Source: a virus
DNA: 29,189 nt
IMG/VR virus record: IMGVR_UViG_3300035698_015804
Span: 1 to 29,189 of that record
Reading direction: 5' to 3' (one strand)
Position numbers and translations under genes: made by a program. Shown here piece by piece: positions 640 to 27,979 of the stretch (the stretch's first letter is position 1; every line of letters starts with the position of its first letter). A model generated the notes under the pieces. It did not search any database and was not told the DNA's origin. It worked only from the letters and a program-made list of their open reading frames with translations.

Positions 640-1521
640 ATGAAAAAACTTAATTATAATTATGTAAAGGAACAAATAGAGAAAGAAGGATATCAATTAC
701 TTAGCAAAGAATATGTTAATAATAGAACCAAATTAAAAATACAATGTAGTAAAGGGCATAAATTTGAAATGCGATATTGTCATTTACAACAAGGACAAAA
801 ATGTCCAAATTGTAATAATGATAACATCAGACTTAGTTATGATTATGTAAAGGAACAAATAGAAAGTGTTGAAGGTTATAAATTATTGTCACCAACTTAT
901 AAAAATAGTAGGTCAAAAATAAAGGTACAATGTAGTAAAGGGCATATTTATAATGTTACTTATGGTAATTTTTATATGGGATATAGGTGTCCATATTGTG
1001 CGGGTATAAAATGCCATATATATGATTATGTAAAGGAACAAATAGAAAGTGTTGAAGGTTATAAATTATTGTCACCAACTTATAAAAATAGTAAAACCAA
1101 ATTAAAAATACGGTGTGGTAAAGGACATGAATATGAGGTTGTATATGGCAGTTTTCATAGTGGTAGAAGATGCCCATATTGTAATAAATTTAAAGGAACA
1201 TCAAAAGCAGAAAAAGAAATTGATGAAATGGTTAAGGAATTTCTACCTAATGAAAATATAATAGAGAATGACCGTACTCAAATAATTAATCCACGAACAG
1301 GACACAATCTTGAACTTGATGTATGGATACCTTCATTGAAGAAGGCAATTGAATATAATGGCATATATTGGCATTCAGGTAATTTAACAAAAGAAAAAGA
1401 TAAGGAAAAAATAAAACAATGCAAAGAAAAGGGTATAGAATTGTTAATTATAGAGGAAGAAGATTGGTATAGTAATAAAAATAATTGCATTGAATTATTA
1501 AAGGATTTTATAAATGACTAG
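640..1521 (+). CDS. Homing endonuclease: three zinc-ribbon repeats plus Vsr-like nuclease domain
   Basis: The protein has 293 residues. Residues 1-185 hold three repeats, each with a Y-x-YVKEQIE helix, a C-(S/G)-KGH half-site and a CP-x-C half-site, reading as zinc ribbons that probably bind DNA. The C-terminal 100 residues carry a very-short-patch-repair/DUF559-like nuclease core: LELDVWIPSLKKAIEYNG, then YWHS and later IELLIIEEEDW. Free-standing phage homing endonucleases of the Vsr-like (EDxHD) kind have this layout. Repeats two and three share an identical 73-bp DNA stretch. Its 3' end overlaps the ATG of the next gene by 8 bp. The start has only a weak GGGGG upstream. The class is well supported; the target site is unknown. 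Confidence 0.8.
   Translation: MKKLNYNYVKEQIEKEGYQLLSKEYVNNRTKLKIQCSKGHKFEMRYCHLQQGQKCPNCNNDNIRLSYDYVKEQIESVEGYKLLSPTYKNSRSKIKVQCSKGHIYNVTYGNFYMGYRCPYCAGIKCHIYDYVKEQIESVEGYKLLSPTYKNSKTKLKIRCGKGHEYEVVYGSFHSGRRCPYCNKFKGTSKAEKEIDEMVKEFLPNENIIENDRTQIINPRTGHNLELDVWIPSLKKAIEYNGIYWHSGNLTKEKDKEKIKQCKEKGIELLIIEEEDWYSNKNNCIELLKDFIND
838..1093 (+). repeat. Perfect 73-bp direct repeat inside the endonuclease gene
   Basis: Bases 838-910 and 1021-1093 read identically over 73 bp, 183 bp (61 codons) apart. They code for the start of zinc-ribbon repeats two and three. The first ribbon (from 655) is diverged, so one unit was duplicated recently or is kept uniform by recombination. Confidence 0.85.
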
Positions 1522-2248
1522 ACTGAAACATTATATAGATGAAGAACTTATAAATGAAAGTATTAATGATAAAGGTATCTTACATGCCTGTTTTTTATCT
1601 GGAATGAGTGGAAGCGGCAAATCGTATACAATCCAAAAAATTAAAGATGGTTCTATTGAGCCAAGAATTGTTAACACCGATAAAATGACAGAGCATTTAA
1701 AAGCTTATGATATTGATAAATGGATTGATGTTGAAGATATTGTAAAAAGAACTACAAAGAACCAGTTAGTTCTTTATCTTAATAGCTTATTACCATTATG
1801 GATTGATGGTACGTCTGCAAAACCCGCTTCTGTAATGAGAAGAAGTGGTATATTAAAATCAATAGGATATGATGTAAGTATGGTCTGGGTTACAGTATCT
1901 CTTGAGACTGCCTTAATTAGAACTAAAGAAAGATCTAAAACTGGTCGTGAAGTACCAGAAAAAATAGTTATTAAAATGTATAATCAATTACGAGGACTTA
2001 AAAAATATTATTCTACTGAATTTAATCATTTTACAGAAATTAAAAATGATGAAGGGGAACTTACTAATAAAGTTATATTACAAGCATATAAAAGGGAGAC
2101 GACATTTTTCAATTCTCCCGTTAAAAATCCTATAGGTATACATCAAATAAATAATATGAAGAAAAATGGTCATAAATATCTTATTGATACAAAAGAATAT
2201 GATAAGAAATATTTGGATAAATTAGTATCCAGTTGGTATAGGAAATAA
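1514..2248 (+). CDS. P-loop kinase (zeta-toxin/polynucleotide-kinase-like) with capsid-targeting-like N-terminus
   Basis: The protein has 244 residues. It opens MTRLKHYIDEELINE, a version of the peptide shared by many genes here, with possible (I)-x-E cleavage points at YIDE and LINE. A Walker A motif GMSGSGKS lies at about 30-37, followed by VNTDK (about 55-58) and an Arg-rich lid-like stretch RTKERSKTGREVP, as in AAA_33/zeta-type nucleotide and sugar kinases. The likely reaction is ATP-dependent phosphorylation of a small molecule, nucleic acid end or protein; the substrate cannot be read from sequence. It overlaps the endonuclease gene and is followed 4 bases later by an ART-like gene. If the leader is a capsid targeting sequence, the kinase would be packaged and injected. 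Confidence 0.7.
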   Translation: MTRLKHYIDEELINESINDKGILHACFLSGMSGSGKSYTIQKIKDGSIEPRIVNTDKMTEHLKAYDIDKWIDVEDIVKRTTKNQLVLYLNSLLPLWIDGTSAKPASVMRRSGILKSIGYDVSMVWVTVSLETALIRTKERSKTGREVPEKIVIKMYNQLRGLKKYYSTEFNHFTEIKNDEGELTNKVILQAYKRETTFFNSPVKNPIGIHQINNMKKNGHKYLIDTKEYDKKYLDKLVSSWYRK

Positions 2249-2252
2249 ACTA

Positions 2253-2867
2253 ATGACGAGACTACAACAATACCTTATAAATGAAGAGTTTCAAGATATC
2301 AATAAATTAGTTGCAATGCTTAAAGCTGATTGTAAGCCCTATCTATCATTACTCAAAAGAACTGATAAAATGTTATGTAGAGGTATTGACTCTCCTCCTA
2401 AAACTAATATTTATGAAAATGAAGTATATTATTTTAAAAGTAAACCTCGTAAAGATCGTAGACCATTAAGCACAGGACCGTTAGTACATAAGCAATTAGA
2501 TGATCTGTTCAAAAAGAAGTTCGGATGGAAAGCAAGGAGTGAAGGAGTGTTTGTAAGCTCTGATTATGGAACAGCATCAGGATATGGACATACTTATTTC
2601 TTTTTCCCTATAGGACAATTTAAGTATGTATGGTCTCCCAAGGTAGGGGACATATGGATATATCTTAAATCACATATAAGCAGTAGAAAAGGAAAGAGTG
2701 AACAACCAGATTTATCAGCAACAGTAGATTCATATATAGATAAAAGTTTAGTGAAGGCTATAGAATTGGAGCATGAAGTGGCAATTAAATGTAAAGAGTA
2801 CTATATGGTTGATGTGGAACTTGATGGAGAAACCTTTTCAAGAGTATTTAAGGATGCATTGCTATGA
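2253..2867 (+). CDS. ADP-ribosyltransferase-like protein with capsid-targeting-like N-terminus
   Basis: The protein has 204 residues and opens MTRLQQYLINEE. Beyond the leader it shows an Arg-Gly strand (LCRGID), then KPRKDRRP, FGWKARSEGVFVSSD with a following A-x-GYG, and a late ELEHEVAIKCKEYY. The order R-G, (S)-G-V-F-x-S...A..YG, E-x-E resembles the R-S-E layout of arginine-type mono-ADP-ribosyltransferases such as T4 Alt/Mod. It has a clear paralogue at 26730-27458, sharing RG, KPR-x-DR-x-P, FGW..RS.GVF, KYVW and KCKEY. Its stop overlaps the next start (ATGA). The fold call is an inference from motifs; host target unknown. Confidence 0.6.
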   Translation: MTRLQQYLINEEFQDINKLVAMLKADCKPYLSLLKRTDKMLCRGIDSPPKTNIYENEVYYFKSKPRKDRRPLSTGPLVHKQLDDLFKKKFGWKARSEGVFVSSDYGTASGYGHTYFFFPIGQFKYVWSPKVGDIWIYLKSHISSRKGKSEQPDLSATVDSYIDKSLVKAIELEHEVAIKCKEYYMVDVELDGETFSRVFKDALL

Positions 2868-3295
2868 GTAGATTCCAGAAATACCTTTTAAGAGAGTGGA
2901 AGGTAAATAAATCCTACTCAGGTAGAAGCATGATAAAACCTAATAGTACTATTTTATGGCAATATATACCTTCTAAAGGTCTTGTTTACACACTTTCTGA
3001 TGGCACTACATATGTCAATAACAAAAAGATAGGTAAGATGATACGCTCGGATTCTCCACAAGCTACTCATAAGAAGCAATTAGCATCCTTTTATAGTGAA
3101 TTGGGGTTTAAGGATAAGGACAAGAGGCAATACATAGAAGATATATATGAAACTTTTGTTAGAGGAAGGATAGTAGACAAGAACATTTATGTGTATTCTT
3201 CTGATTATGTTGGTATAGAGGCAAAAAAGTACAACAGAACTATGGATAAGGCAATTGATATGATTTATAAATATGTTGATGAGGATTATAATTAA
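2864..3295 (+). CDS. Targeting-peptide protein, family B (DxYxY C-terminus), unknown function
   Basis: The protein has 143 residues and opens MSRFQKYLLREW, with a possible L-R-E cleavage point. The body ends with a RGRI...IYVYSSDY strand pair and a helix MDKAIDMIYKYVDE. Genes at 5594 and 26329 share this plan: W near the middle, a GRI-x-(P/D)-(G/K)-R/N-x-I-(Y/F)-V strand, then DKAI-x-x-(V/I)-Y-(K/R)-Y at the end. It directly follows an ART-like gene with a 4-base overlap, as its paralogue at 26329 does on the other arm. No enzymatic motif is visible. Confidence 0.7.
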   Translation: MSRFQKYLLREWKVNKSYSGRSMIKPNSTILWQYIPSKGLVYTLSDGTTYVNNKKIGKMIRSDSPQATHKKQLASFYSELGFKDKDKRQYIEDIYETFVRGRIVDKNIYVYSSDYVGIEAKKYNRTMDKAIDMIYKYVDEDYN

Positions 3296-3296
3296 T

Positions 3297-4721
3297 ATGA
3301 GACTCCAGAGATATATAAATGAAGCAAAGGAACAACTAAAGCAATGGAAGGACTATGTGAGGTCTAACAAAATGCTCAAAGCAGCTGTTAAAATATTAGA
3401 AAAAATTAATAAGAAAGGATACAAAGCATATATAGTTGGTGGAACTGTCCGTGATATAATCCTTGGAGAAAAACCTCATGATGTTGATATTGCTACTAAT
3501 ATGCCTATACCCGAAATAGAAAAATTATATAAGACCTATGATATTGGTAAATCTAAGACATTTGGTATTGTTGTTGTTAAAGAAGGAGGTTATGATTTTG
3601 AGCTGGCTTTATTCAGGAATGACGGGAAATATTCTGATGGGAGGAGACCCGAATCTGTTATTGTTACTGGTTCGTTTGAGCAAGATGCTTCTCGTAGAGA
3701 TTTTACTATCAACGCTATGGGAATCAATGCGAAAGGTGAAATTTTGGATTACTTCGATGGTAAGAAGGATATTAAGAACAAGGTTTTAAGAACAGTTGGT
3801 AATCCACATGAACGATTTGGAGAAGATTACCTTAGGATGATGAGAGCACCGAGATTTGCTTCTAAACTTGGATTTGATATAGAGAAGGGTACTAAGAAAG
3901 CAATCAAGAAACTATCTAAAAATATTATTAAGTTATCCCCTGAACGCATAAAGGATGAGATAATGAAATCAGCTGCTCAATCAGGAGACAAGTTCGCTAA
4001 GTATATCATACAGTTGGATAAGTTAGGTATACTCAAACATATACTACCAGAGATAAAACAGTTACAATATAGTCCTGAAGATCTAACACACCATCCTGAA
4101 ACTATCGGTAAGGGCGGAAGTCCATTTGCTCATACTATGGAAGCACTTAAAGTTTCTAATACAAGAGAACCTTTGAAGAACCTTGCTATACTTTTACATG
4201 ATGTTGGAAAGGGTGTTACGTTTTCTGATACAACACCAGGTAAGATTTATACATATTATGGACATGATGCTGAAGGTGTAAAACTTATAGAGGAAATTGC
4301 TAAGAGATTGAAGATGTCTAATAAGGAAAGAGATACTTTATTATTTACAGCGGCTAACCATATGAAATTCCACCGTATGAAGGAGATGAAACCCTCTAAA
4401 ATATTCAAATTAGTTAATGATGATAATTGGGATGCATTAATTTCTGTAGCTATGGCTGATGAATTTTCAAGAGGAGAGAAGTTCATGAGTAAGAAGGATT
4501 TTGATGCCTCTTTAAAGGCTGCTATAAAGATAAAAGAGAAATGGGGTAAGAAGGAAGTTAAAAAGAGGATGAAACTTGTGGATGGTAATCATGTGATGGA
4601 ATTGTTGGGTATAGGTCCAGGTAAAAAGGTTGGAGAAGTGATAAGGAAAACAACTGAATGGATATTAGATATGGATATTTCAAAACAAGAAGAAATAGAT
4701 AAGTATATAAGGGGTATATAA
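3297..4721 (+). CDS. cca: CCA-adding tRNA nucleotidyltransferase with HD domain and capsid-targeting-like N-terminus
   Basis: The protein has 474 residues from the ATG at 3297. That start is chosen over a GTG/TTG-type start at 3273 because it gives the MRLQRYINEA leader shared with neighbours. The nucleotidyltransferase core is complete: VGGTVRD (about 47-53), HDVDIAT (61-67) with the two metal-binding Asp residues, RRDFTINAM (133-141), and EDYLRMMRAPRFASKLGF (176-193). An HD phosphohydrolase-type domain follows with HT at 279-280 and LLHDVGKG (299-306). This matches class II CCA-adding/poly(A) polymerase family proteins with a C-terminal HD domain. The usual role is repair or completion of tRNA 3' CCA ends. 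Fusion to the leader suggests delivery in the virion, where it could restore cleaved tRNAs. Confidence 0.88.
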   Translation: MRLQRYINEAKEQLKQWKDYVRSNKMLKAAVKILEKINKKGYKAYIVGGTVRDIILGEKPHDVDIATNMPIPEIEKLYKTYDIGKSKTFGIVVVKEGGYDFELALFRNDGKYSDGRRPESVIVTGSFEQDASRRDFTINAMGINAKGEILDYFDGKKDIKNKVLRTVGNPHERFGEDYLRMMRAPRFASKLGFDIEKGTKKAIKKLSKNIIKLSPERIKDEIMKSAAQSGDKFAKYIIQLDKLGILKHILPEIKQLQYSPEDLTHHPETIGKGGSPFAHTMEALKVSNTREPLKNLAILLHDVGKGVTFSDTTPGKIYTYYGHDAEGVKLIEEIAKRLKMSNKERDTLLFTAANHMKFHRMKEMKPSKIFKLVNDDNWDALISVAMADEFSRGEKFMSKKDFDASLKAAIKIKEKWGKKEVKKRMKLVDGNHVMELLGIGPGKKVGEVIRKTTEWILDMDISKQEEIDKYIRGI

Positions 4722-4735
4722 GGAAGGGGTATATT

Positions 4736-4762
4736 ATGAGATTATAACAATATATAAGGAGG
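4736..4762 (+). pseudogene. Ghost targeting peptide: ATG AGA TTA then TAA
   Basis: The reading is M-R-L-stop-Q-Y-I. A single C-to-T change in a CAA codon would explain the stop (TAA at 4745-4747), because intact copies read ATGAGA-TTA/CTA-CAA-CAA-TA. After Q-Y-I the frame runs into AGGAGG, which now serves as the Shine-Dalgarno site of the gene at 4768. It appears to be the residue of a lost or reshuffled targeting cassette. Confidence 0.5.
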
Positions 4763-4767
4763 TTATT

Positions 4768-5103
4768 ATGAGTATACAAGAAAAAATAGAAAAATATTTG
4801 GTTAATGAAGGTAAAGATGAGTATAAATATGATACTATGTTAGCTGATAATATTGCTGATATTATTGAAACACATTTAAAAGGAAAAAACGCATATATTA
4901 AAGGTGAAAAACTTATCAAAAAGGAAATAAAAGAAGCTAAAAAAAGAACAGGATATAAAGGAAAAAATTGGAAAGAACTTTTACAAGATGCTGTAGATAA
5001 TCTTGAAATTATGTATGATTATGAAATACATGATGCACCTGTTAGTAGTAATAAAGGTAATAAAATATCTAATTTTATAGATATACTTGAGAAGATAAAA
5101 TGA
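4768..5103 (+). CDS. Small lysine-rich protein with diverged targeting peptide
   Basis: The protein has 111 residues and is strongly charged. It opens MSIQEKIEKYLVNEG, a longer, diverged form of the shared leader (Y-L-V-N-E in the right place). AAGGAGG at 4756-4762 is a strong ribosome binding site 5 bases before the ATG. The middle is Lys/Glu-rich and helical (KKEIKEAKKRTGYKGKNW). The stop overlaps the next ATGAGA start by 4 bases. I recognise no family. It could be a DNA-associated internal head protein, as many such proteins are small and basic. Confidence 0.6.
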   Translation: MSIQEKIEKYLVNEGKDEYKYDTMLADNIADIIETHLKGKNAYIKGEKLIKKEIKEAKKRTGYKGKNWKELLQDAVDNLEIMYDYEIHDAPVSSNKGNKISNFIDILEKIK

Positions 5104-5597
5104 GATTAGAACAGTATATAAATGAAGGTTCAGAAGAATTTTATGACATCTTAGCCTCCAACCACAAGAAATTTCATGAACACATGACCAGTATGGATGA
5201 AATGTTTGATAAGGATGTGAAGTTGGATAAACCAATGTGGGATGGTAAATATTTTACTGTAAAGTTCACTGTAGAAAATACCATATATACATTCAAAGCC
5301 ATGGAGAATGATAAAAATGAATATTCCATACTTTTTTACTCCTTCGACAAAAATTTATTTGACATAAAAGGTGATAAAAGATATGTAGGTGATGTGTTTT
5401 CAGGAGTTGTTAAATCATTACAAGCACTTATTAAAACAAGAAATGTGGAAATGTTTTGGTTTAACACTAATGAGCCTAAATTGATAAAACTATATGACAA
5501 GGTACTAAAGAAATTAGAAAGGAAGTTTAAAGGATATGAGTTTGATAAATCCTTAGTAGTTGATGATTACAAATTCTGGAGATTTGAGAAAAAATGA
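5100..5597 (+). CDS. Targeting-peptide protein, family C (DVFSGV motif), unknown function
   Basis: The protein has 165 residues and opens MRLEQYINEG. It shares MDEMFDKDV, an (A/F)-x-FKA strand, GDVFSGV and a basic C-terminal helix (LYDKVLKKLERKFKGY) with the gene at 6674, and more weakly with the gene at 24119 (SVMDGVAVVMKELI, then an IEYYIFA strand). The alternating beta-strands then helix then strand layout suggests a compact alpha/beta domain, but no catalytic signature is visible. It is linked to its neighbours by ATGA overlaps on both sides, so translation is probably coupled. Confidence 0.7.
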   Translation: MRLEQYINEGSEEFYDILASNHKKFHEHMTSMDEMFDKDVKLDKPMWDGKYFTVKFTVENTIYTFKAMENDKNEYSILFYSFDKNLFDIKGDKRYVGDVFSGVVKSLQALIKTRNVEMFWFNTNEPKLIKLYDKVLKKLERKFKGYEFDKSLVVDDYKFWRFEKK

Positions 5598-6013
5598 GAC
5601 TACAACAATACCTATTAAGAGAAGCAAGAGTAAGGAAGACAAATGCTGATGTCTTCTTAAATGATTACGCTCCTATTTTCATGTGGAGCCCTAAAGATGG
5701 ATTCTTATGGGCTGTATGGGATGAAGATGAGAGATGGATGCTATTTCATGGGTCAAAAAAATTGGAAAAAAGATTTGAATATACACATACTTCTTATACA
5801 CATCCCCAATTGTTAAATGCTTACAAGGGTAATGATAGGAACCTTGAAAAATTCATAACAGGAAGAATAAGCCCCGATGGAAGAACAATTTATGTGCATG
5901 ATTTCGGTAGTAGACCTTACCTTGCTGATACTATAACAACTATTCGTTATGATAAATATGTTGATAAAGCAATAGATAATGTTTATAGGTATATGAAGGG
6001 TTACATTAAATAA
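5594..6013 (+). CDS. Targeting-peptide protein, family B, unknown function
   Basis: The protein has 139 residues and opens MRLQQYLLREA. It is closest to the gene at 26329: both have A-R-V-(R/K)-x-TNA-(D/E)-(V/I)-FL, a (F/V)-(M/V)-W-S strand, (I)SGRI/ITGRI then G-R-T-I-(Y/F)-V, and a final Y-(R/K)-YM-(K/G)-GYI. The leader ends in L-R-E, a possible prohead protease site. The body seems to be a beta-rich domain with a C-terminal helix. It is a third member of the family after 2864 and 26329; function unknown. Confidence 0.7.
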   Translation: MRLQQYLLREARVRKTNADVFLNDYAPIFMWSPKDGFLWAVWDEDERWMLFHGSKKLEKRFEYTHTSYTHPQLLNAYKGNDRNLEKFITGRISPDGRTIYVHDFGSRPYLADTITTIRYDKYVDKAIDNVYRYMKGYIK

Positions 6014-6026
6014 GGAGATAATTAAT

Positions 6027-6341
6027 ATGAAACTAAAACAATATTTGCTGAATGAAGAAAGACTGAGTGGTGGCGACAAGAAGACCCTAAAGGGGTATAT
6101 CAAAAATCCTAAAAAAGCTTCCTTCTTGTTAAGTTCATTTTCCAAGAATTATGATGAATCGGAAAGAGAAGTAGATGTTGAGAAATTGAAAGATGGGGTA
6201 GAATTTACTTATAATATGGATCACTATGAACTGACAAATGCTTTAGTCAATATGGTTGATAGTATGGATGAATATCAATTTAGTACCAGTGGTGAAAAAC
6301 AAACCAATACCATGTACTTCAAGGTATCGAAGGAAAAATAA
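6027..6341 (+). CDS. Targeting-peptide protein, unknown function
   Basis: The protein has 104 residues and opens MKLKQYLLNEER. AAGGAG at 6013-6018 supports the start at 6027. After the leader come GGDKKTLKGYIKNPKKA and an acidic/polar domain with alternating strands; it ends KVSKEK. It carries no motif I can name. It sits between a family B gene and a gene without leader, which starts immediately after its TAA. Confidence 0.65.
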   Translation: MKLKQYLLNEERLSGGDKKTLKGYIKNPKKASFLLSSFSKNYDESEREVDVEKLKDGVEFTYNMDHYELTNALVNMVDSMDEYQFSTSGEKQTNTMYFKVSKEK

Positions 6342-6677
6342 ATGAGTATAACCTATACACCAAAGGGCACTCCAGCGATGAAAATTGGAAATTATCAATT
6401 AACCTTAACTTCTACCAGTGGGGATAAGGAAAAATGGAAATGGTTAACTGTTTCTACTGGCAGTAATAGAGACATAGTACCATTTACTCTTCTTGGTCTA
6501 AAACAAAAGGTGGTACCTCTAAAGCTCAGGAATAGAATGAAGAAAGTATTTAAGAAGTATGTTGCTAAGGATGGGTTCATATACAAGAAAGATGTAGAGA
6601 AGTTATGCAATGATCTTAGTATAATGGATGAGAGTGTTACTAACCGTATGGATGATTTACTGGATTTATTACTATGA
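6342..6677 (+). CDS. Hypothetical protein without targeting peptide
   Basis: The protein has 111 residues and opens MSITYTPKGTP. It lacks the Q-x-Y-L-x-E leader, unlike nearly all neighbours. The N-terminal half reads as beta-strands (YQLTLTST, KWLTVST); the C-terminal half is basic and helical, ending in DDLLDLLL. It starts directly after the stop of the 6027 gene and its TGA overlaps the next ATG, so it is co-translated with the cluster. It may be a second subunit for the 6027 product or lie outside the packaged set. Confidence 0.6.
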   Translation: MSITYTPKGTPAMKIGNYQLTLTSTSGDKEKWKWLTVSTGSNRDIVPFTLLGLKQKVVPLKLRNRMKKVFKKYVAKDGFIYKKDVEKLCNDLSIMDESVTNRMDDLLDLLL

Positions 6678-7204
6678 AATTTCAACGATATATGGATGAA
6701 GATGGACATATTGAAATTTTAACAAGTTGGGAATATCAAAATCAACTTCATGGATTTAAATCATTAGAAGAAATGTTTGATAAAGATGTTGAATTTGGTA
6801 AAGTAACAAATACTAAAGAGTTATTGATGGTAAACTTCAGCACAAGTAACGATAAATGGGCATTCAAAGCTAGTAGGGTATTAGGAGAAGATGATATATA
6901 TGGTATTTTATTTAATAAAGTAGGAGATAAACCTGAAAATATGTTTAATCCAAAGGGTGGTAGTGATTATACTGGTGATGTGTTTAGTGGTGTGTTCAGA
7001 TGTATTGAAAAATTGATAAAGGATAGAAATAGAAATGTAAATGGTATAGCCTTTAAAACTGTTGATAGGAAGTTGTTATCATTATATAAGAGAATGTCAA
7101 AATGGGTAGAAAAGAGATTCCCGAATTTTGTGTTTCAAAAGGAATTACATAAAAAAAACTCTACTGAATTCGTATTTATGAGAAAGGGGATTGAGATTAG
7201 ATGA
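6674..7204 (+). CDS. Targeting-peptide protein, family C (DVFSGV motif), unknown function
   Basis: The protein has 176 residues and opens MKFQRYMDED, a diverged leader with M-D-E in place of L/I-x-E. It is a paralogue of the gene at 5100: EEMFDKDVEFGK, WAFKASR, YTGDVFSGV, then a basic helix (LYKRMSKWVEKRFPNF) and a closing strand FVFMRKG. No active-site signature is seen. The end overlaps the next gene by ATGA. Confidence 0.68.
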   Translation: MKFQRYMDEDGHIEILTSWEYQNQLHGFKSLEEMFDKDVEFGKVTNTKELLMVNFSTSNDKWAFKASRVLGEDDIYGILFNKVGDKPENMFNPKGGSDYTGDVFSGVFRCIEKLIKDRNRNVNGIAFKTVDRKLLSLYKRMSKWVEKRFPNFVFQKELHKKNSTEFVFMRKGIEIR

Positions 7205-7932
7205 GACTAAAACAATACTTGAATGAGAAAAGGATTCGTAGATTTAGGTTTAAAAAGCAGAAGAAACGTATTGATCCTATAGTGCGCATAAAGAAGGCTG
7301 AATCTATAGTAAAGAAAGGGTTAGTTAAACTTACTAAAGAATTAAGTAGTGTAGGATGGAGTATTGAGTTCTTTGATCTTCTAAAAATCATGAGTTCAGT
7401 ATGGAAAAGGGATCGTATAAAGTTTATTCCTGATGAAGGATTGGTTCGTATGAAAGAATTAAAAAACGCCAAGTATATGGATTCTGGTGATACTGATATA
7501 GATGGTGATATAGAATTACAAATTACTACAAGAATTATGGATTATATTTCTAAAGAGCAAAACAAGGAAAGTTTATCCAGTATAAAGAATGAGTTTGCAC
7601 AAGAATTTGTTAGAGTGTTGTCTCATGAATTAGTACATAGAGCACAATGGCAATCTTATGGTGAGATAGTACATAAAAGCATTCTTAAAAATAGAAAGGT
7701 CAAGGATAGTTATGTACAGTATAAAGAGTACCTGAAATCTCCTCACGAAATGATGGCATACGCACAAGATGCAGCATATGAAATTTTTCAAAACAGAGAG
7801 CCTGGTATATACTATTTATATCAATATTGGTTTGATGATGAGCCAGAAGTCTTTAAAAGCTTTGTAAAAATAATGAAGAAATCCTATAAGAAAATCAGTG
7901 ATGGGGAAGAGTTGATAATCGAGGTTAGATAA
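7201..7932 (+). CDS. Zincin metallopeptidase-like protein with capsid-targeting-like N-terminus
   Basis: The protein has 243 residues and opens MRLKQYLNEK, followed by a very basic stretch (RIRRFRFKKQKKR). A zinc-binding HELVH lies at 142-146 in the context VLSHELVHRAQW. A further conserved-looking Glu lies in SPHEMMAYA (E183), fitting the HExxH plus distant Glu arrangement of zincins. I infer a metal-dependent peptidase; it could instead be an inactive fold relative. In a packaged, injected protein such an enzyme could cut a host defence or regulatory protein. No signal peptide is present, so cytoplasmic action after injection is more likely than secretion. Confidence 0.72.
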   Translation: MRLKQYLNEKRIRRFRFKKQKKRIDPIVRIKKAESIVKKGLVKLTKELSSVGWSIEFFDLLKIMSSVWKRDRIKFIPDEGLVRMKELKNAKYMDSGDTDIDGDIELQITTRIMDYISKEQNKESLSSIKNEFAQEFVRVLSHELVHRAQWQSYGEIVHKSILKNRKVKDSYVQYKEYLKSPHEMMAYAQDAAYEIFQNREPGIYYLYQYWFDDEPEVFKSFVKIMKKSYKKISDGEELIIEVR

Positions 7933-7934
7933 TT

Positions 7935-8249
7935 ATGAGATTTTTACAATACTTAAATGAAGAATTGTTTACAACAGGACAAACAGATACATGGGATAGT
8001 AAAAAATTTAAACCTCTTGAAGTTTTTATAAATCCTTCTAGAAGTGAATTAAGAGGAATATCAAAGCATGTTAGATATGTAATTGATAATAAAACTAAAA
8101 CACTTTATGCATGGAATGGTACATGGGCATTACATTCTGATGTATGGAAAAATATTCTAAAGAAGAAACTTAAAGATAGTAGAAATTTTGATGATGTTAC
8201 ATTAAGGCGTAGTAGTTATGCTACTGGTGATCGTTATCCTAATAGATAA
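7935..8249 (+). CDS. Targeting-peptide protein, last gene of the left cluster
   Basis: The protein has 104 residues and opens MRFLQYLNEELF. The body has a RYVIDNKTKTLYAWNGTWALHSDVW stretch that looks like two or three strands with Trp residues, then a Lys-rich helix. The strand text is reminiscent of family B (a W-containing hairpin), but the match is too weak to join them. It is the final plus-strand gene before the convergent uvsW gene; only 13 bases separate the two stops and no strong terminator hairpin is visible. Confidence 0.65.
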   Translation: MRFLQYLNEELFTTGQTDTWDSKKFKPLEVFINPSRSELRGISKHVRYVIDNKTKTLYAWNGTWALHSDVWKNILKKKLKDSRNFDDVTLRRSSYATGDRYPNR

Positions 8250-20657: not shown

Positions 20658-20695
20658 TATTGATTAATCAGGATTGGTGAAAAGAGGAGTAAAAT

Positions 20696-21244: not shown

Positions 21245-21259
21245 AAGGGGAATAATACC

Positions 21260-21862: not shown

Positions 21863-21867
21863 AAAAG

Positions 21868-22074: not shown

Positions 22075-22498
22075 TAAATGGGTAAATGAAGTATTATTGC
22101 TGATTAAAGCTTCTTCCGATAAAGATGCTAAAAAATATCTCAAAGAAGCTTTAGAAGAATCCTTTTGTGATGGTCATGATGAATCCTTTGAAGAGGGTGT
22201 AGACCAAGGTTATAGAGATTGCTTGGATGAAGAAAGAGAAGAATGCTCGGATGAAGATGAATTACAAGAAAGATATGATGTTGGTTTTGAAAATGGTCAT
22301 GAAGAAGGGTATAATGAGGGGTATGATGGAGGACGTGAAACCGGACGTGATGAAGGACATGAAGAGGGTCACAATGAGGGGTATGATGGAGGATATGAAA
22401 CTGGACGTATTGAAGGACATGAAGAGGGCTACAATGAAGGGTATGATAACGGTCATGAAGAAGGATACAATGAAGGAATTAGTGAAGGTAGTATATGA
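22067..22498 (+). CDS. Acidic Gly-Glu repeat protein
   Basis: The protein has 143 residues. A helical acidic N-terminus (about 75 residues) is followed by repeats built on GHEEGYNEGYDGG and (Y/R)ETGR-x-E, with a Gly about every four residues. The 4-residue Gly spacing (E-G-x-x-E-G / Y-x-x-G) suggests a long regular helix or elongated rod, similar to E-G-Y repeat proteins seen in other phages. Function unknown; it precedes the lysis-type gene with a 4-base overlap. Confidence 0.65.
   Translation: MDDKWVNEVLLLIKASSDKDAKKYLKEALEESFCDGHDESFEEGVDQGYRDCLDEEREECSDEDELQERYDVGFENGHEEGYNEGYDGGRETGRDEGHEEGHNEGYDGGYETGRIEGHEEGYNEGYDNGHEEGYNEGISEGSI
22295..22480 (+). repeat. 60-bp tandem coding repeat
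   Basis: Units start at 22295, 22355 and 22415 with GG(T/A)CATGAAGA; a shortened 36-bp step leads to a last partial unit at 22451. Copies differ mostly at third positions, so the repeat is kept at the protein level. Confidence 0.75.
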
Positions 22499-23097
22499 AA
22501 ATTAATAAAGCAACCATTAAAGATTGTATATTACTATTAATAGTTTCAATGTTTTTGGGGCACCTTCTATATATTATGGGTAAACAACCTATAGTAGAAC
22601 AAACAAACATTGTGCCTGATTTAACGTTTGTAATGGATGCTGAAGAAAATGATTCACAAATACCCAATACTTCTGATATGATAAGGTATTTGAATCCAAA
22701 GGTTGATATTCAGATAGCTGACCTCATTGCTAAAAGTGTTGATACCCATAGAGGTTACTTTCCAAAAGAATTAATAGTGAGTTTAATTTTTAGGGAGAGT
22801 AGCTTTAGACCATTGCTCATAAGTAACGCTGATTGCCTCGGTTTGATGCAAATAAACCCCAAAGCTCATAAGGAAAAGGTTAAGGATTTTAAGAGGTATG
22901 AATTATTTTACATAGACACTAACATAAAGATGGGATGTAAAATATTAAAGGAGTATTATGAAAAGAATAACTCTATAAAGGATGCCTTGATAAGATATTT
23001 AGGAGCTAACAACAAGAAATATATGGAAGATATCATGTTCAATTTTGCTAACCTCATGATGATTAATACATATGAAGTTAAAGGTGAAGAAAAATGA
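22495..23097 (+). CDS. Membrane-anchored lytic transglycosylase
   Basis: The protein has 200 residues. A hydrophobic segment (about 11-28) forms a signal anchor. The SLT fold follows: LIVSLIFRESSF with catalytic E101, CLGLMQINPKAH, and GCKILKEYYEKNNSIKDALIRYLGA. It cleaves the glycan strand of peptidoglycan from the periplasmic or outer side. It may be the phage endolysin of a signal-arrest-release type or an accessory wall enzyme. Overlaps the next gene by ATGA. Confidence 0.85.
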   Translation: MKINKATIKDCILLLIVSMFLGHLLYIMGKQPIVEQTNIVPDLTFVMDAEENDSQIPNTSDMIRYLNPKVDIQIADLIAKSVDTHRGYFPKELIVSLIFRESSFRPLLISNADCLGLMQINPKAHKEKVKDFKRYELFYIDTNIKMGCKILKEYYEKNNSIKDALIRYLGANNKKYMEDIMFNFANLMMINTYEVKGEEK

Positions 23098-23408
23098 GAG
23101 TATTTGTAATTGTGGCAGTAACGTTTATTTTAGCGGCATGGCTTGGCTGGGTGATTGGGTTACCATTTCCTCGAACTGATATTGAACAAACGGTCGAGAT
23201 TGGTGATGTTTGTTTGGATACATATAAGGTGTCAACGCAATTGTGGATATACCGTTATGGTAGTTTAATTTTAGATACTTGGTATAGTAATGGTAAAATA
23301 AAATGCTCCGATGTGCAACTAATCAAAATAGCTCAAATGAAGGCGGTAAAGGAAAGGTGTGAAGTCGTTGAAAAGTGCCTGAAAGATTTTAAATATTGTG
23401 ATGATTAA
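23094..23408 (+). CDS. Small exported or membrane protein, Cys-rich
   Basis: The protein has 104 residues with an N-terminal hydrophobic segment (VFVIVAVTFILAAWLGWVIG) suited to a signal anchor, then a region with five Cys residues (DVCLD, KCSD, ERCEVVEKCLKDFKYC), which suggests disulfides in the periplasm. It follows the transglycosylase gene directly, so a lysis-related or spanin-like role is possible but not shown. Its TAA overlaps the convergent gene's stop. Confidence 0.6.
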   Translation: MRVFVIVAVTFILAAWLGWVIGLPFPRTDIEQTVEIGDVCLDTYKVSTQLWIYRYGSLILDTWYSNGKIKCSDVQLIKIAQMKAVKERCEVVEKCLKDFKYCDD

Positions 23409-23698
23409 TAATATTTCTCAATAATTGCATCTATTAGTGATTCAATATTATAACTCATATCATTTTCACCAATCCCATTCATCCAAATAGTAATTTCATA
23501 TTTAAAATTCTCCATTTCATTTTCTGTTACTGATTTAGACAAACTAATAGCTTTTTTACCTATTTCATCGTAAAGGGAGGCACGGAGTTTTTTTCTTTTA
23601 TCAATATAGGATTTTATGGATTTTTTTATGATGGAGATATCAGAATTTATATTTCTATCTTTTTCATCCAGTATATAGTGTTCCAATTTATGCTTCAT
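23405..23698 (-). CDS. Targeting-peptide protein, helical, unknown function
   Basis: The protein has 97 residues from the ATG at 23698, chosen because it gives MKHKLEHYILDEK, a diverged form of the leader with I-L-D-E; the longer start at 23716 adds only MKRRRK. The body is helical and Lys-rich in the middle (KKSIKSYIDKRKKLRASLYDEIGKKA), ending acidic. It overlaps the upstream gene by 11 bases and the convergent stop by 3. Function unknown. Confidence 0.6.
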   Translation of the reverse strand: MKHKLEHYILDEKDRNINSDISIIKKSIKSYIDKRKKLRASLYDEIGKKAISLSKSVTENEMENFKYEITIWMNGIGENDMSYNIESLIDAIIEKYY

Positions 23699-24119
23699 TT
23701 TCCTTCTCCTTTTCATTATCCATATCTTTATCTACTACATCTCTTACATCTTCCTCATTATCTTCTGGTTTTTCCGTTGGTACCATTCCTTTTGCATGGG
23801 CACGCGTCTGCGGTATGATACCAGCCTTCTTCCCGATTGTGCTTACTACTTGTCTTAAAGCTATTATATGTTCCGATTGCTCTTTTTCCATATTGGCAAG
23901 CATAAGTCCTATAGAATACTGAAACGAGGGCTGGTCTTCAACTTTTTCAATCTCTGATTCAATCTCCTCAATGAACTTATCCATATGGTCTTCTAGCTTT
24001 CGGAGCCCATTCATTAATGTTTTCTTGGATTTCTTACGAGTAGAATCAGCCTTGGCCATTTTCCGTTTCTCATCATCCGTCATGCCTTCTTCATTCAACC
24101 AGTCTTGTAATCTTCCCAT
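23688..24119 (-). CDS. Targeting-peptide protein, charged and helical
   Basis: The protein has 143 residues, opening MGRLQDWLNEEG. It is strongly charged: a Lys-rich helix, an acidic helix (FIEEIESEIEKVED), and a very acidic C-terminus (DNEEDVRDVVDKDMDNEKEKE). Such charge patterning is typical of prohead core or scaffold proteins, which fits a head-targeting leader, but no family is recognised. It starts within a TAATG overlap. Confidence 0.65.
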   Translation of the reverse strand: MGRLQDWLNEEGMTDDEKRKMAKADSTRKKSKKTLMNGLRKLEDHMDKFIEEIESEIEKVEDQPSFQYSIGLMLANMEKEQSEHIIALRQVVSTIGKKAGIIPQTRAHAKGMVPTEKPEDNEEDVRDVVDKDMDNEKEKENEA

Positions 24120-24637
24120 TATTTTTTACTCCTTTCCAACCTAATTTCTATACCGTTTATCTCAATATCAATATCATCAGGTAATTCGTAAGGTAACGAC
24201 TTCTTTCTTTCTGCATATGCGTATCCTTTGAACACATCCGTATGTTTTTTGAGTATATATTTTGATATTTTTCTGAACATATCAATTTTACGCTTTTCTG
24301 CAAATATATAATACTCTATAGCCTTAGGTCTAATAGTTTCTATAAGTTCCTTCATAACTACAGCTACACCATCCATCACACTAAATGGCGTATGTTTATT
24401 GGTTATATTAGCCAATATGCTACCTGTTGGGTCATTGTATGTAAATGATAAATGATAAACCTTATTACCTTTATGGAAAACATTAACAGTATAATAATCC
24501 TTACCAACCCAAAAATACCATTCATTCTTACCTTTCCATTTTACTACAGTCGTTAGATCAATAGCTTCATTAATACCATTGATATAATTATTCTCATCCA
24601 CCGTTGACCAAAATTTATAATATTCCTGCAACCTCAC
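24119..24637 (-). CDS. Family C protein with split targeting peptide
   Basis: The protein has 172 residues from a GTG start at 24637. It opens MRLQEY, but the usual L-x-E follows only after an insertion of about 16 residues (YKFW...NYING) as INEA. The body resembles the genes at 5100 and 6674: WYFWVGKDYYTVNVF strands, SVMDGVAVVMKELIETI helix, an IEYYIFA strand, and a basic MFRKISKYILKKH helix. Function unknown. Whether the broken leader still works is open. Confidence 0.62.
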   Translation of the reverse strand: MRLQEYYKFWSTVDENNYINGINEAIDLTTVVKWKGKNEWYFWVGKDYYTVNVFHKGNKVYHLSFTYNDPTGSILANITNKHTPFSVMDGVAVVMKELIETIRPKAIEYYIFAEKRKIDMFRKISKYILKKHTDVFKGYAYAERKKSLPYELPDDIDIEINGIEIRLERSKK

Positions 24638-24649
24638 TCTGTTTCTTTT

Positions 24650-24901
24650 TTACTCCTTATCCAGCATTTCCATAACACTTTCATATGTTTTCTTTTTTTT
24701 CTTTTTCTTACCAACCTTCATATTATATTTATCATTACCTATAGATGTTATGACTATTTTATCATTTTTTATATCAAATTGTAAACTCTTGCCTGAACTT
24801 GTGATATTTTTAGCATCCCATTCAGCAAAAATATGAGGATTACTTGACTTCAACATATTCATTATTGTTTGTGCTACAGATTCAGGTAATTTTTGTCTCA
24901 T
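24650..24901 (-). CDS. Small protein with poly-Lys stretch
   Basis: The protein has 83 residues, opening MRQKLPESVAQTIMNML. A run of seven Lys residues (VGKKKKKKKTYES) follows a beta-rich middle (LQFDIKNDKIVITSIGNDKYNMKV cut in two strands). No targeting leader of the usual form. Starts immediately after the DHH gene's stop. The basic patch suggests nucleic acid binding. Confidence 0.55.
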   Translation of the reverse strand: MRQKLPESVAQTIMNMLKSSNPHIFAEWDAKNITSSGKSLQFDIKNDKIVITSIGNDKYNMKVGKKKKKKKTYESVMEMLDKE

Positions 24902-26332
24902 TTAGTCCTCCAATTCCTTATCCTTCATGACCTTTACGATTTCAGTTTGTATTTTCCTCATAAAATCAGTAAAACCTTTACCATAAAAGTTTAGACCACT
25001 AACGTTCGTGATATCTTTATGGCCTCCTGACTGGCTCATTACTAAATCCCATAAACTTATACTTACCTTCTTCAATATACTCTTTTGTTCCTTTGATAAT
25101 TGTGTATATGGTTTATTAGTAATGTCCTTTATCATACCTTCCCATCTATCATTTCCTTTCAAACCTTTGATATCCTTTTCAAATAGAGCCATCATATCCT
25201 TGAAAGTGAAACCCATTGATTCTGCATTAAATGATTTATCCTTCTCAAAGGTGTATTTTATGTAATCCAGAGTTACCTTTATAGACTGCATTTTACTCTT
25301 GAATTTAGGCAATACTTTTTTCATTACTATATCACCAAGATGGTATGGATTCTTACCACCCTTGAATGGGTTTTTACTCAATTGTACCAAACCCATCGGC
25401 CACACAATAGTATAGAAATCTGCTGTAGGGTGGTTTTTAAATGGTGTATAACGGTCATAAAGATTTCCCTTACCCATAAAACCACCACCATATTGTACTA
25501 TAGTGGTACCTATTAATATGGAAGCACCGCTTTTTAAACTCTTCACGTCACTTAATTTACCATTAATCTTAATTTTACCTTTAACTTGCTTAATATATTT
25601 TTCTTGATCTGTTTCTAATTGTTCAGGTGGTCTATAACCAGCTTCTTTAGCTATTTTAATTGTTGTATTATATATAGAAATGAGTGAAGGTTTTGCTTGC
25701 ATTACCAAGTCTGTAAGGAAATCCTTTTTGTTTTTATGGGCTAATATTAATTTGTTTGTAGCGAAACCCATCATTTGGTGATTTACCTTACCACCTTTCC
25801 TTTTATCAACCTTGAATACCGCTCTCATAATATCATCGGGCGTAAGATCCTGTGAGCCAAAATCTGCCGAATCAACTGTGGATATTATCTTAACATCTTT
25901 CGGTGGAAATAGGTCATTAGGAGATAATACTTGTGATATATAGGCTGCATTAGAAGGGGTCTTAACAAAAGAAGTGGAGGTTCCCTTTTCTACACCTATC
26001 TGGCCTTCATGGTGGTCGGTGTGTATATTCATTACAGGTTTACCATGTGCGAAATCAACCATACAAACCAATGTCTTATTTTTTGGTTTAGGCACTGCAT
26101 ACTCTTCTCCTCCGTACTGAATAGGATGTGCATCAATAGTTTTGATCCTATATTTTTGTAAATAAGCCTTCAATCCTATAGCTGAAGTAACACCGTCAAG
26201 TCAAAGATCCTTATGGAAGTAGATTTCTGCAGTCTTGTATTCTTTCGCAAGATCAGTAATATTGCGCAAACCCGATTCCATAAGGACCGATAATACCTCC
26301 TCTACGTCATTAAGTCTTTCCAAAATATTCAT
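24902..26332 (-). CDS. DHH-family phosphoesterase interrupted by an in-frame TGA (possible ribosomal hop)
   Basis: From ATG 26332, which overlaps the upstream gene by ATGA, the frame codes 43 residues ending YFHKDL, meets TGA at 26203-26201, and continues in the same frame as LDGVTSA. Without the six bases TGACTT the text would read HKDLDGVTSA, a perfect H-x-D-x-D-G DHH motif. Downstream come VDFAHGKPVMNIHTDHHEG with the DHH signature and STVDSADFG with a late Asp, then about 300 residues of accessory sequence. DHH proteins hydrolyse phosphodiester bonds in nucleic acids or dinucleotides. The stop is flanked by identical CTT codons, as needed for hopping; a plain mutation is the other explanation. 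TTG 26173 would be a poor start inside the domain. Confidence 0.75.
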
Positions 26333-26733
26333 GCTATGTAACCTCCCATATATTTATATACTGCATTTATGGCTTTATTCATTCGTTTTTCAAATTTTTT
26401 AGCAAGAAGTATGGGATTTTCTTTATAATTAAAACCGTTAACAAATATTGTACGACCTTCAGGATGTATTCTTCCACTTATAGTATTACTTTCATAAAAT
26501 TCTTTATTAACAATTTCCATTAATTCCCAATGTGCAAACCAAGGTTTATTAGAGGAAACCTTTTTTATTTCTTTATTATTCTTATAAATTATCCATTTTG
26601 AATCTTTATAGATAGACCATAATAAACCTGTAGAGTCTGACCATACAAAAGTGGGTACATATTCTTTTAAAAATATTTCAGCATTTGTTTGTTTTACTCT
26701 CGCTTCCCCTAATAAATATTGTTGAAATCTCAT
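26329..26733 (-). CDS. Targeting-peptide protein, family B
   Basis: The protein has 134 residues, opening MRFQQYLLGEA with L-G-E as possible cleavage point. It is the closest paralogue of the gene at 5594 (ARVKQTNAEIFLKEY, ISGRIHPEGRTIFV, NAVYKYMGGYI) and a more distant one of 2864. As on the left arm, it follows an ART-like gene with a 4-base overlap, so the two-gene order is conserved. Function unknown. Confidence 0.7.
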   Translation of the reverse strand: MRFQQYLLGEARVKQTNAEIFLKEYVPTFVWSDSTGLLWSIYKDSKWIIYKNNKEIKKVSSNKPWFAHWELMEIVNKEFYESNTISGRIHPEGRTIFVNGFNYKENPILLAKKFEKRMNKAINAVYKYMGGYIA

Positions 26734-27458
26734 ATTATTAGTTCCTTTATAATTAACTGTAATTCATATGAATGGTCTACTGCCATTACTATATATTCCT
26801 TACATTTAAATATTGCTTCAAAATTATATTTGTCAGAATTGGGTACTAATCCAGATGTTTTGTAATCCTTGGAATAAATATCTTCAATCTCTAATTTAAA
26901 ATCATTAAGAAATGTCAATGCATCATCAATATCTTTTTTACTTTTATCAATAGCAGACTTTTCAACATCTTTAAAATAATCAATCCAGTCATCTTTATTA
27001 GATTCATTAAATTTTTTAATATCTTTCAAGTGTTCAGCATGATAATTATAACGGTCATAAAGATCATATATATCATCCGTATTCTTTATCCATACATATT
27101 TATAATTACCAGAAGGTATAAAGATAGTTTTTTGTCCATAAGTTTTAGCCTTCATATGATTACCAGTAAATACACCATCACTTCTTATATTCCATCCGAA
27201 CAACTTCTTACCCATTTTATTCATAAAAGCATGAAGATCCTTGTTTATAAACCTCGGTAATCTATCTGTTCTTGGTTTCAATACTCTGAAAGTTTTTACA
27301 TTTTGACCTTTTAGACCACGATATATGAAATTGTTCCTTATATAGTCTTTTCCAAACTCTTTAAGGAAAGGCTTGCAGTTATTAGCAATATAATCACTGA
27401 GTTGTCCTCTTGTTCTATTACTCAAAGTGTTTTCATTTATATACTGTTGTAGTCTCAT
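26730..27458 (-). CDS. ADP-ribosyltransferase-like protein with capsid-targeting-like N-terminus
   Basis: The protein has 242 residues, opening MRLQQYINEN. It is a paralogue of the gene at 2253: FIYRGLKG, LKPRTDRLPRF, KKLFGWNIRSDGVFTGNH, AKTYGQ, FIPSGNYKYVW, and a closing FEAIFKCKEYIVM. The R-G, S-x-GVF...YG and final Glu features suggest an ADP-ribosyltransferase fold. In place of E-H-E of the 2253 copy it has N-F-E, so target residue or activity may differ. An insertion of about 50 residues (HLKDIKKFNESNKDDW region) separates the motifs. Overlaps both neighbours by 4 bases. Confidence 0.6.
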   Translation of the reverse strand: MRLQQYINENTLSNRTRGQLSDYIANNCKPFLKEFGKDYIRNNFIYRGLKGQNVKTFRVLKPRTDRLPRFINKDLHAFMNKMGKKLFGWNIRSDGVFTGNHMKAKTYGQKTIFIPSGNYKYVWIKNTDDIYDLYDRYNYHAEHLKDIKKFNESNKDDWIDYFKDVEKSAIDKSKKDIDDALTFLNDFKLEIEDIYSKDYKTSGLVPNSDKYNFEAIFKCKEYIVMAVDHSYELQLIIKELII

Positions 27459-27979
27459 ATGTTTTTCACTATTTTTAATTTTTTAGTGTTAAACCATACA
27501 GTTGATTCAACATCCCATGAATACAATGATGATGACAATGATGATAAATTTTTATTTTTTCGTACACCATTTGAGGTAACATATAAAGCATCATAAACCT
27601 TTGAAAACTTTACAAAGTCTATATAGGTGTTATCCATTCTCAATTCGCTTTCCATAAATTTATAAGGGAATTTTTCTAATAATTTTTCAAAATGGGAACT
27701 ATTGTCTATAATATACATACTTACACCCGGTTGGATTTCTAAAACTGTACCACTTGAAATATCACCATAACCCTCTCCTTCAGACCATTCAGCCCACTCA
27801 GACCATTTATCACCTTTAAGGGTGCTTGTCCAGAATCCATTATCAGGTTTATTTAAAAAAGCTTGTTTATTAGTGGTGTTCTTTTTAACGGGTTTTAAAC
27901 TTTTTATAGCAGGCATAGCTAATTGATATCTATAACCTTTTGCTACCGCCTCATTTATATATTTCTGTAGTCTGCTCAT
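27455..27979 (-). CDS. Targeting-peptide protein with WDVESTVWF motif
   Basis: The protein has 174 residues from the ATG at 27979; the GTG at 27982 adds one residue. It opens MSRLQKYINEA. The body has GFWTSTLKGDKWSEWAEW, VLEIQPGVSMYIID, VKFSKVYDALYVTSNG and a closing SWDVESTVWFNTKKLKIV. The combination of a W-T-S segment, a DALYVT strand and a W-D-x-E-S-T-V-W ending looks like a conserved domain present in other phages and bacteria, possibly an enzyme of the ART-like class, but I cannot name it with certainty. Confidence 0.65.
   Translation of the reverse strand: MSRLQKYINEAVAKGYRYQLAMPAIKSLKPVKKNTTNKQAFLNKPDNGFWTSTLKGDKWSEWAEWSEGEGYGDISSGTVLEIQPGVSMYIIDNSSHFEKLLEKFPYKFMESELRMDNTYIDFVKFSKVYDALYVTSNGVRKNKNLSSLSSSLYSWDVESTVWFNTKKLKIVKNI

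Follow-up and report, generated by a model that had tools for sequence, protein, structure and literature searches.

Unrelated proteins of an uncultivated T4-like virus share a two-part N-terminal leader that probably targets them to the prohead

Why would so many otherwise dissimilar genes of one virus begin with much the same short peptide? The window analysed here is the whole 29,189-nt stretch of IMGVR_UViG_3300035698_015804, part of the genome of a T4-like bacterial virus that has not been cultivated. All 17 genes listed by the first-pass annotation are present as ORFs, 11 on the plus strand (1514-8249) and six on the minus strand (23405-27979), for which that annotation had given the low coordinate in five cases and the start in one (27979). 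Genes are named here by the position of their first codon (Table 1). To call their leaders near-identical, as had been done, slightly overstates the likeness. The strict pattern M-(1-4)-[LFI]-x-x-[YFW]-[LIMV]-(0-1)-x-E is matched by 15 of the 17, while the diverged leader of 4768 (MSIQEKIEKYLVNE) and that of the GTG-initiated 24637, in which a long insert separates MRLQEY from INEA, are variants. The leader peptides of the window include MRLQQYINEN and MTRLQQYLINEE. Also encoded in the window, at 21260-21862, is a ClpP-like protein recognized by eye.

Table 1. Leader-bearing genes of the window and an associated promoter-like element.
Feature	Position	Strand	Supporting evidence
Zeta-toxin/polynucleotide-kinase-like P-loop protein; leader MTRLKHYIDE	1514..2248	+	Zeta_toxin 2.7e-8, AAA_33 2.6e-9, phrog_12810 4e-20
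Relative of the Atu_ph07 CDS 53-63 array, possible ADP-ribosyltransferase; leader MTRLQQYLINE	2253..2867	+	phrog_11975 3e-30; ADP-ribosyltransferase motifs by eye
Family with 5594 and 26733; leader MSRFQKYLLRE	2864..3295	+	
tRNA nucleotidyltransferase (CCA-adding)/poly(A) polymerase with HD domain; leader MRLQRYINE	3297..4721	+	PolyA_pol 3.8e-33
Protein with diverged leader MSIQEKIEKYLVNE	4768..5103	+	
Putative GNAT-like domain; leader MRLEQYINE, then a second possible site SMDE/MFD before the domain	5100..5597	+	DUF6934-related via G003 homologues
Family with 2864 and 26733; leader MRLQQYLLRE	5594..6013	+	
Leader MKLKQYLLNE	6027..6341	+	Orthologues in G003 and L042/L044, leader on each
Putative GNAT-like domain with SLEE/MFD ahead of it; leader MKFQRYMDE	6674..7204	+	
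Possible metallopeptidase; leader MRLKQYLNE	7201..7932	+	HELVH stretch by eye
NPS-family protein; leader MRFLQYLNE	7935..8249	+	
Leader MKHKLEHYILDE	23405..23698	-	
Probable coiled-coil family; leader MGRLQDWLNE	23688..24119	-	Weak CorA match
Putative GNAT-like domain; split leader VRLQEY...INE	24119..24637	-	
Family with 2864 and 5594; leader MRFQQYLLGE	26329..26733	-	
Related to the Atu_ph07 array, possible ADP-ribosyltransferase; leader MRLQQYINE	26730..27458	-	phrog_11975 6e-17
phrog_8582-related protein; leader MSRLQKYINE	27455..27979	-	
TATAAATA(AGGA), the T4-type late-promoter consensus; precedes the right-arm genes, which run leftward	28617..28624	-	

Because the strict pattern was written after the leaders had been seen, its counts in the window are descriptive: it occurs in 15 of 21 arm genes and in none of the 28 other listed genes (Fisher 3e-8), and shuffled N-termini gave a mean of 0.04 matches with a maximum of 2 over 2000 shuffles. 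Four further arm genes (6342, 24901, 26173 and 28419) lack the leader. Elsewhere the pattern matched one of 409 ATG-initiated ORFs in T4 and eight of 1557 in Agrobacterium phage Atu_ph07. An independent repeat was provided by a sister contig, G003, where a slightly looser pattern recovered leaders on 23 of 68 ORFs outside the core and on none of the 21 core ORFs. The leader also recurs on orthologues in relatives. Codons at the conserved positions vary (CTG, CTA, CTC, TTA and TTG for Leu; TAT and TAC for Tyr; GAA and GAG for Glu) while the residues stay, so conservation is of the peptide. The remainders of the proteins are, as that annotation had it, mostly unrelated. The 17 proteins form about 12 families: 2253/27458, 2864/5594/26733, 5100/6674/24637 and nine singletons, a count that sets aside a handful of weak matches over short stretches taking in the leader itself.

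The leader has two parts, a hydrophobic-x-x-aromatic pair followed by a hydrophobic-x-Glu triplet. We scanned 87 N-termini (21 window arm genes, 31 genes of G003 and 35 of relatives), and 62 carried the pair with a Glu at +3 or +4. The residue two before this Glu is Leu or Ile in 55 of the 62, and Leu, Ile, Met or Val in 61. Position +2 from the aromatic is hydrophobic in 19 of 20 leaders with Glu at +4, versus 3 of 42 with Glu at +3. The hydrophobic residue therefore tracks the Glu rather than the aromatic, and the whole triplet shifts together, the behaviour expected of a cleavage site. There are exceptions: one G003 leader ends in LND, two related leaders end in LGR/IGR, and 9 of 11 loci of the coiled-coil family have no aromatic ahead of the triplet.

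This anatomy recalls the capsid-targeting sequence (CTS) of T4 internal proteins (IPs). In PMC9026906 and PMC3012670, T4 IPs are described as otherwise unrelated proteins that carry a short N-terminal peptide. Mutations in IPIII place targeting at residues 4 and 7 and processing at residues 8 and 10, and gp21 cleavage follows L/I-X-E (PMC9026906). The positions conserved in the leader are the ones that these mutations single out, and MTRLKHYIDE aligns without gaps with MKTYQEFIAE. A profile of the leader gave a mixed ranking of T4 starts, with IPII/IPIII 11th of 742 candidates, IPI 308th and Alt 317th.

We consider it probable that the leader acts in the manner of the T4 CTS, as a prohead signal with one part for targeting and one for maturation, carried by a virion-packaged set that is injected into the host. 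The hydrophobic-x-x-aromatic pair would dock each protein on the prohead core. A gp21-type prohead protease would then cut at (L/I/M/V)-x-E, freeing the mature protein inside the head. Tagged proteins would be made late, packaged alongside the DNA and delivered into the host when the phage next infects. The capsid-targeting reading of the first-pass annotation is well supported by the anatomy and gains further from the independently moving (L/I)-x-E, the late-gene context in relatives and the virion cluster of Atu_ph07; it is weakened by the poor T4 profile ranking and by the lack of a gp21-type protease in the clade fragments. The S77 protease (PF03420, phrog_207) was absent from the clade contigs searched, all of them fragments, in separate rounds covering 9, 15 and 20 contigs. 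A gp23 (PF07068, phrog_138) was likewise absent from the clade contigs searched, again all fragments. As controls, the phrog_207 and phrog_138 models found matches in Atu_ph07; PF03420 and PF07068 matched in no control. Scans of viral contigs with other clade genes recovered no clade contig with capsid genes. Incompleteness of the contigs may explain why both are missing.

Relatives place the leader in a genomic context. Local phmmer searches with T4 and Atu_ph07 proteins found homologues of gp4, gp5, gp6, gp25, gp46, gp55 and uvsX, and the leader genes sit among those of gp4, gp5, gp6 and gp25, segregated from the replication genes. Among the further loci, a gp20 turned up in one contig alone, the distant L142, while L037 and L142 each gave gp13-like matches. 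The CCA-adding enzyme has a leader in all eight loci with a complete N-terminus, the window included, and in five contigs (G010, G011, L131, L133 and L135) its gene lies between gp5- and gp25-like genes. Distant contigs L136-L139 and L141 have gp5- and gp25-like genes, and no CCA gene was detected in them. In the 'KAL' family, 14 of 14 loci have (L/I)-x-E leaders; these are of two types, with 10 distinct peptides in all, and their linkers vary. The leader is missing from the gene of G003 orthologous to 7935, which lies at 10681. The late-promoter consensus TATAAATA precedes the right-arm genes at the same place in the window and G003, and precedes the orthologous gene in G010 and G011, both of which encode gp55 homologues. 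Across the window this motif is not enriched (13 versus 8.7 expected).

Such surroundings also suit a leader that serves as an assembly or docking helix for the baseplate, neck or tail, its bearers being structural or tail-borne proteins outside the head. Mass spectrometry of Atu_ph07, moreover, points to the virion and not specifically to the head. We nonetheless regard this alternative as unlikely: a mobile (L/I)-x-E fits a prohead-protease site and has no obvious reason to be kept in a tail protein, CCA-adding, kinase and GNAT-like enzymes would be unusual baseplate parts, and the same two-part plan is seen in the T4 CTS. More doubtful still is a role unconnected with virions, in which the leader would guide proteins inside the host to where replication takes place, to a partner or to a protease, for example the phage ClpP. 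CCA-adding enzymes and kinases do work in the cytoplasm, and the window has its ClpP-like protein (by eye), but leader genes have late, structural neighbourhoods in relatives, the leader is found on 0 of 28 other window genes and 0 of 21 G003 core genes, and the Atu_ph07 homologues lie inside a virion cluster. Finally, mere ancestry, with the leader a functionless remnant in duplicated genes, is very improbable: three paralogous families do occur in the window, but the leader is found on about 12 families with no kinship detected among them, its residues are kept despite varying codons, and orthologues retain it even where one of its two types has replaced the other and the linker has changed.

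If the leader is a prohead signal, what would it carry? Two proteins of the window, 2253 and 27458, have matches in an 11-member array of Atu_ph07 (CDS 53-63, numbered by order on the record), whose members start with M[RK]Wx[QD]L[TNI]E in ten cases and MRLFQLLE in one. The array lies inside the cluster CDS 31-76, from which 29 proteins, counted for the whole cluster, were found by mass spectrometry of virions (PMC6102473). By eye, the Atu_ph07 homologues show YRG, STS-like and E-(I/V) stretches, and 2253/27458 are possible ADP-ribosyltransferases. No PDB relative was found at E <= 1; the structure model of 2253 has a pLDDT of 34.5 and was built from three sequences only. Comparison of 2253/27458 with Alt, ModA and ModB by hhalign gave weak, unconvincing matches.

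The 1514 protein has its match in the kinase part of Atu_ph07 CDS 53 (1e-21), a protein that fuses modules matching 1514 and the GNAT-like domain, with VTE, LTE, LNE and ITE visible by eye at its module joints. Structure prediction suggests a GNAT-like fold for 5100/6674/24637. The model of 5100, the sole member modelled, has a pLDDT of 69.8, low before residue 33, and GNATs make up nearly all of its best 50 rows against the PDB (Z up to 9.2). With Foldseek alone, the best PDB match of this model (1.4e-3) fell short of the E <= 1e-3 cutoff, and tblastn of 5100 in phages returned no match. Equating the domain with the N-terminal part of T4 Alt was rejected, as profile comparison aligns only 15 columns around ITELFDE. 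No more than one effector domain was recognized in each leader protein of the window, and most members may act as effectors. The clade cargo would be a large modular set in which a CCA-adding enzyme, a zeta/PNK-like kinase, GNAT-like domains and a possible ADP-ribosyltransferase stand beside many proteins of unassigned function. Some modules of this set are fused in 'polyvalent'-like proteins of Atu_ph07 and split here into separately tagged genes.

With slightly less than even confidence, we propose that this uncultivated T4-superfamily clade deploys a 'distributed polyvalent' arsenal, in which several dozen tagged late genes stock the head with a combinatorial assortment of enzymes (CCA-adding, GNAT-like and kinase modules among them) and the swapping of tagged modules replaces Atu_ph07-style domain fusion as the way to change the injected set. 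If the prohead-targeting reading is right, the first ten residues would tell which unknown genes of the clade reach the virion, and dozens of anonymous genes would become testable injected proteins. The internal-protein principle of T4 would extend beyond the T-even phages and be tied to polyvalent proteins. Short tags of natural origin would also become available with which to load proteins into phage heads. A full-text literature search, with subscription papers largely outside its reach, showed no earlier account of such leader families outside T4 among the papers listed.

Among known systems, the T4 CTS shares with this leader a hydrophobic/aromatic pair three residues apart, then (L/I)-x-E. 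The two differ in sequence (MKTYQEFIAE versus the diverged MRLQxYLNE) and in scale, with many more genes here, 17 in 29 kb, and enzymatic cargo; the leader here may also hold an extra hydrophobic residue between its two parts. T4 Alt is a packaged, injected ADP-ribosyltransferase. It begins MELITELFDE, G003 relatives begin MRLQHYITELFDT, Foldseek matches the GNAT-like model weakly to phage proteins of the Alt type (E 3e-3 and 6e-3), and a possible ADP-ribosyltransferase (by eye) belongs to the window set, whose modules, unlike those of Alt, occupy separate genes. Atu_ph07, a 490-kb cultured phage compared here with an uncultivated fragment, has homologous cargo (2253, 27458, 1514 and the GNAT-like domain) and leaders closing in L-x-E, but its leader is shorter (MRWxQLTE) and several modules are joined in one protein. 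Polyvalent proteins of phages were reportedly described by Iyer and co-workers. According to PMC7824862, ADP-ribosyltransferase and GNAT domains of such proteins are injected with phage DNA. Polyvalent proteins are large multidomain chains, whereas in the window every module is encoded by a separate gene and bears a leader of its own.

The window is a complete 29-kb IMG/VR virus record and itself a genome fragment, with a T4-like replication set in its middle and short genes, many of unknown function, on both sides (see table). Seventeen of these had been ascribed a common leader in the first-pass annotation. All 17 are present as ORFs, and the observation was confirmed and extended to the sister contig G003 and to orthologues in relatives. 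A strict leader pattern, written after the leaders had been seen so that its window figures are descriptive, matched 15 of 21 arm genes and 0 of 28 other window genes; shuffled window N-termini gave a mean of 0.04 matches. G003 (55.8 kb; PolB 71% identical to the window PolB) repeats this distribution, with leaders in 23 of 68 ORFs outside the core and 0 of 21 inside, ORF counts that contain some spurious ORFs. The PolBs of three contigs with other sample numbers (L003, L004 and L006) are 100% identical to the window PolB over matched residues, indicating repeated sampling of this virus or of a very close one. G+C is 43% in the window's first kilobase versus 29-37% elsewhere; a chimeric contig end is possible.

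Features of the window other than leader genes
Position	Feature	Basis or remark
1-539	Glu-rich protein	character quite unlike the rest
8263-23408	T4-like replication set	
within 8263-23408	UvsW-like helicase	
within 8263-23408	PolB	
within 8263-23408	DnaB-type helicase, dUTPase, uracil-DNA glycosylase, ClpP, lysozyme-like genes	by eye
16015-16530	presumed YbiA/NADAR-like protein	by eye; could be of interest beside a possible ADP-ribosyltransferase (ART)
24902-26173 (-), upstream to ~26330	DHH-phosphoesterase-like gene	shares 83% identity with G003 29457 across 423 aa; relative to it, in-frame TGA near the N-terminus, hence the ORF as listed begins at a TTG further down
28629-29189	collagen-like Gly-Ser-Thr repeat protein	matches tail fibre families; runs off contig end

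The scan covered 87 N-termini (21 window arm genes, 31 from G003 and 35 from relatives). In 62 of them an aromatic follows a hydrophobic residue at a distance of three and is itself followed by a Glu at +3 or +4; some of the other 25 genes had never been candidates for a leader. Two positions ahead of the Glu stands L or I in 55 of the 62; counting M and V as well raises this to 61. Position +2 from the aromatic is hydrophobic in 19 of 20 leaders with Glu at +4 versus 3 of 42 with Glu at +3 (Fisher 7e-12, descriptive only, as the sequences are related); the window and G003 alone give 14/15 versus 1/22. Thus, the (L/I)-x-E triplet moves as one unit relative to the hydrophobic/aromatic pair.

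In T4, mutants of the internal protein IPIII assign residues 4 and 7 to targeting and 8 and 10 to processing, the gp21 protease cuts after L/I-X-E, and Asp at position 10 prevents cutting but not targeting, as reported in PMC9026906. MTRLKHYIDE carries the same kinds of residue as MKTYQEFIAE at exactly these positions, in both pair and triplet; a single G003 leader ends in LND. The leader is best read as a putative targeting signal of the T4 capsid-targeting kind. Counting against this, the proposed profile comparison with T4 leaders ranked IPII/IPIII only 11th of 742 candidate starts, IPI 308th and Alt 317th. A small T4 protein, gene 61.1 (NC_000866 18966-19130), starts MKTFKEFIKED, similar to the IPII/IPIII leader.

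Orthologues were sought by a PolB alignment scan covering the best 80 of 126 loci, with contigs of 132 and 107 kb among them. The CCA-adding enzyme (3297) bears the leader in all eight loci whose N-terminus is complete (window, G003, G010, G011, G014, L131, L133 and L135). Not counted were L039, which shows a truncated view of G014, and L042, L044 and L134, truncated ahead of the N-terminus. In G010, G011, L131, L133 and L135 it is flanked by gp5- and gp25-like genes, which would be an odd site for a tRNA enzyme unless it were a late or virion protein. In L136-L139 and L141, more distant contigs that likewise carry gp5- and gp25-like genes, the CCA gene was not detected. Members of a small family with a KALxLPEP-like stretch have a leader in 14/14 loci. 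These leaders comprise 10 distinct peptides and fall into two types, MRLQRFLNE and MLIEKYLGE; the linkers behind them vary in length. In the probable coiled-coil family (24119) all 11 loci retain an (L/M)-x-E triplet, but nine have lost the aromatic ahead of it, which can therefore be dispensed with. Against the targeting reading, the leader is missing from the G003 orthologue of 7935.

The T4 late consensus, TATAAATA, lies 18 bases ahead of the small gene heading the window's right-arm genes; G003 has it in the corresponding position, and the surrounding block is conserved. Two divergent leader genes of G003 are preceded by it as well, as is the 28419 orthologue in G010 and G011; both of these contigs encode gp55 homologues. 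Across the whole window it shows no significant excess (13 versus 8.7 expected).

All-against-all comparison and profiles resolved the 17 proteins, described initially as mostly unrelated behind the leader, into ~12 families, upholding that description. Three have several window members (2253 and 27458; 2864, 5594 and 26733; 5100, 6674 and 24637) and the others are single. Besides the CCA-adding enzyme, the leader-bearing proteins include a zeta/PNK-like P-loop kinase (1514) and, in G003, amidoligase-like, PNK-phosphatase/HAD-like and additional GNAT-like proteins. The 5100 family has a predicted GNAT-like fold: the model of 5100 (pLDDT 69.8 on average, with low values up to residue 33) retrieved acetyltransferases as nearly all of the best 50 PDB rows (Z up to 9.2); plain Foldseek against the PDB gave no match at E <= 1e-3. 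Three proteins of the cultured Agrobacterium phage Atu_ph07 are among its ten best viral structure matches, with Alt-type phage proteins as weak matches lower in the list.

Atu_ph07 offers a link to the virion. Its two records were the only tblastn matches of 27458 in cultured phages (E <= 0.01). In its 11-gene tandem array, ten genes begin with M[RK]Wx[QD]L[TNI]E and one with MRLFQLLE; by counting annotated genes, a numbering that agrees with gp2, gp128 and gp132 of the paper, the array is CDS 53-63. Mass spectrometry reported in PMC6102473 assigns most detected virion proteins to three clusters; CDS 31-76 is one of these and accounts for 29 proteins, a figure for the whole cluster of 46 CDS and not for array members singly. 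Virion packaging of the clade's leader proteins is putative, at one remove. Also counting against the targeting reading, the proposed search for a gp21-type protease came up empty: the fragmentary clade contigs searched yielded no S77 protease and no gp23, whereas the control Atu_ph07 was positive with the phrog models for both. Two genes downstream of the Atu_ph07 prohead protease gene (phrog_207, 164585-165217) lies a gene (MF403008 165981-166637) that starts MSIRKFLNIINES, fifth of 2974 candidate starts by the window-clade leader profile.

T4 Alt, packaged and injected according to PMC9026906, starts MELITELFDE, and G003 genes start similarly (MRLQHYITELFDT). Injected polyvalent proteins contain ART and GNAT domains, as described by Iyer and co-workers (PMC7824862). 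The leader cargo resembles polyvalent proteins in dispersed form, under putative T4-type capsid targeting. Atu_ph07 CDS 53 joins in one protein a possible ART, a 1514-related kinase (1e-21) and two GNAT-like domains akin to the 5100 family; by eye, V-T-E, L-T-E, L-N-E and I-T-E stand close to or at the module joints, whereas the corresponding window modules are separate, each with a leader. The window set looks like the polyvalent idea with its modules split and tagged one by one.
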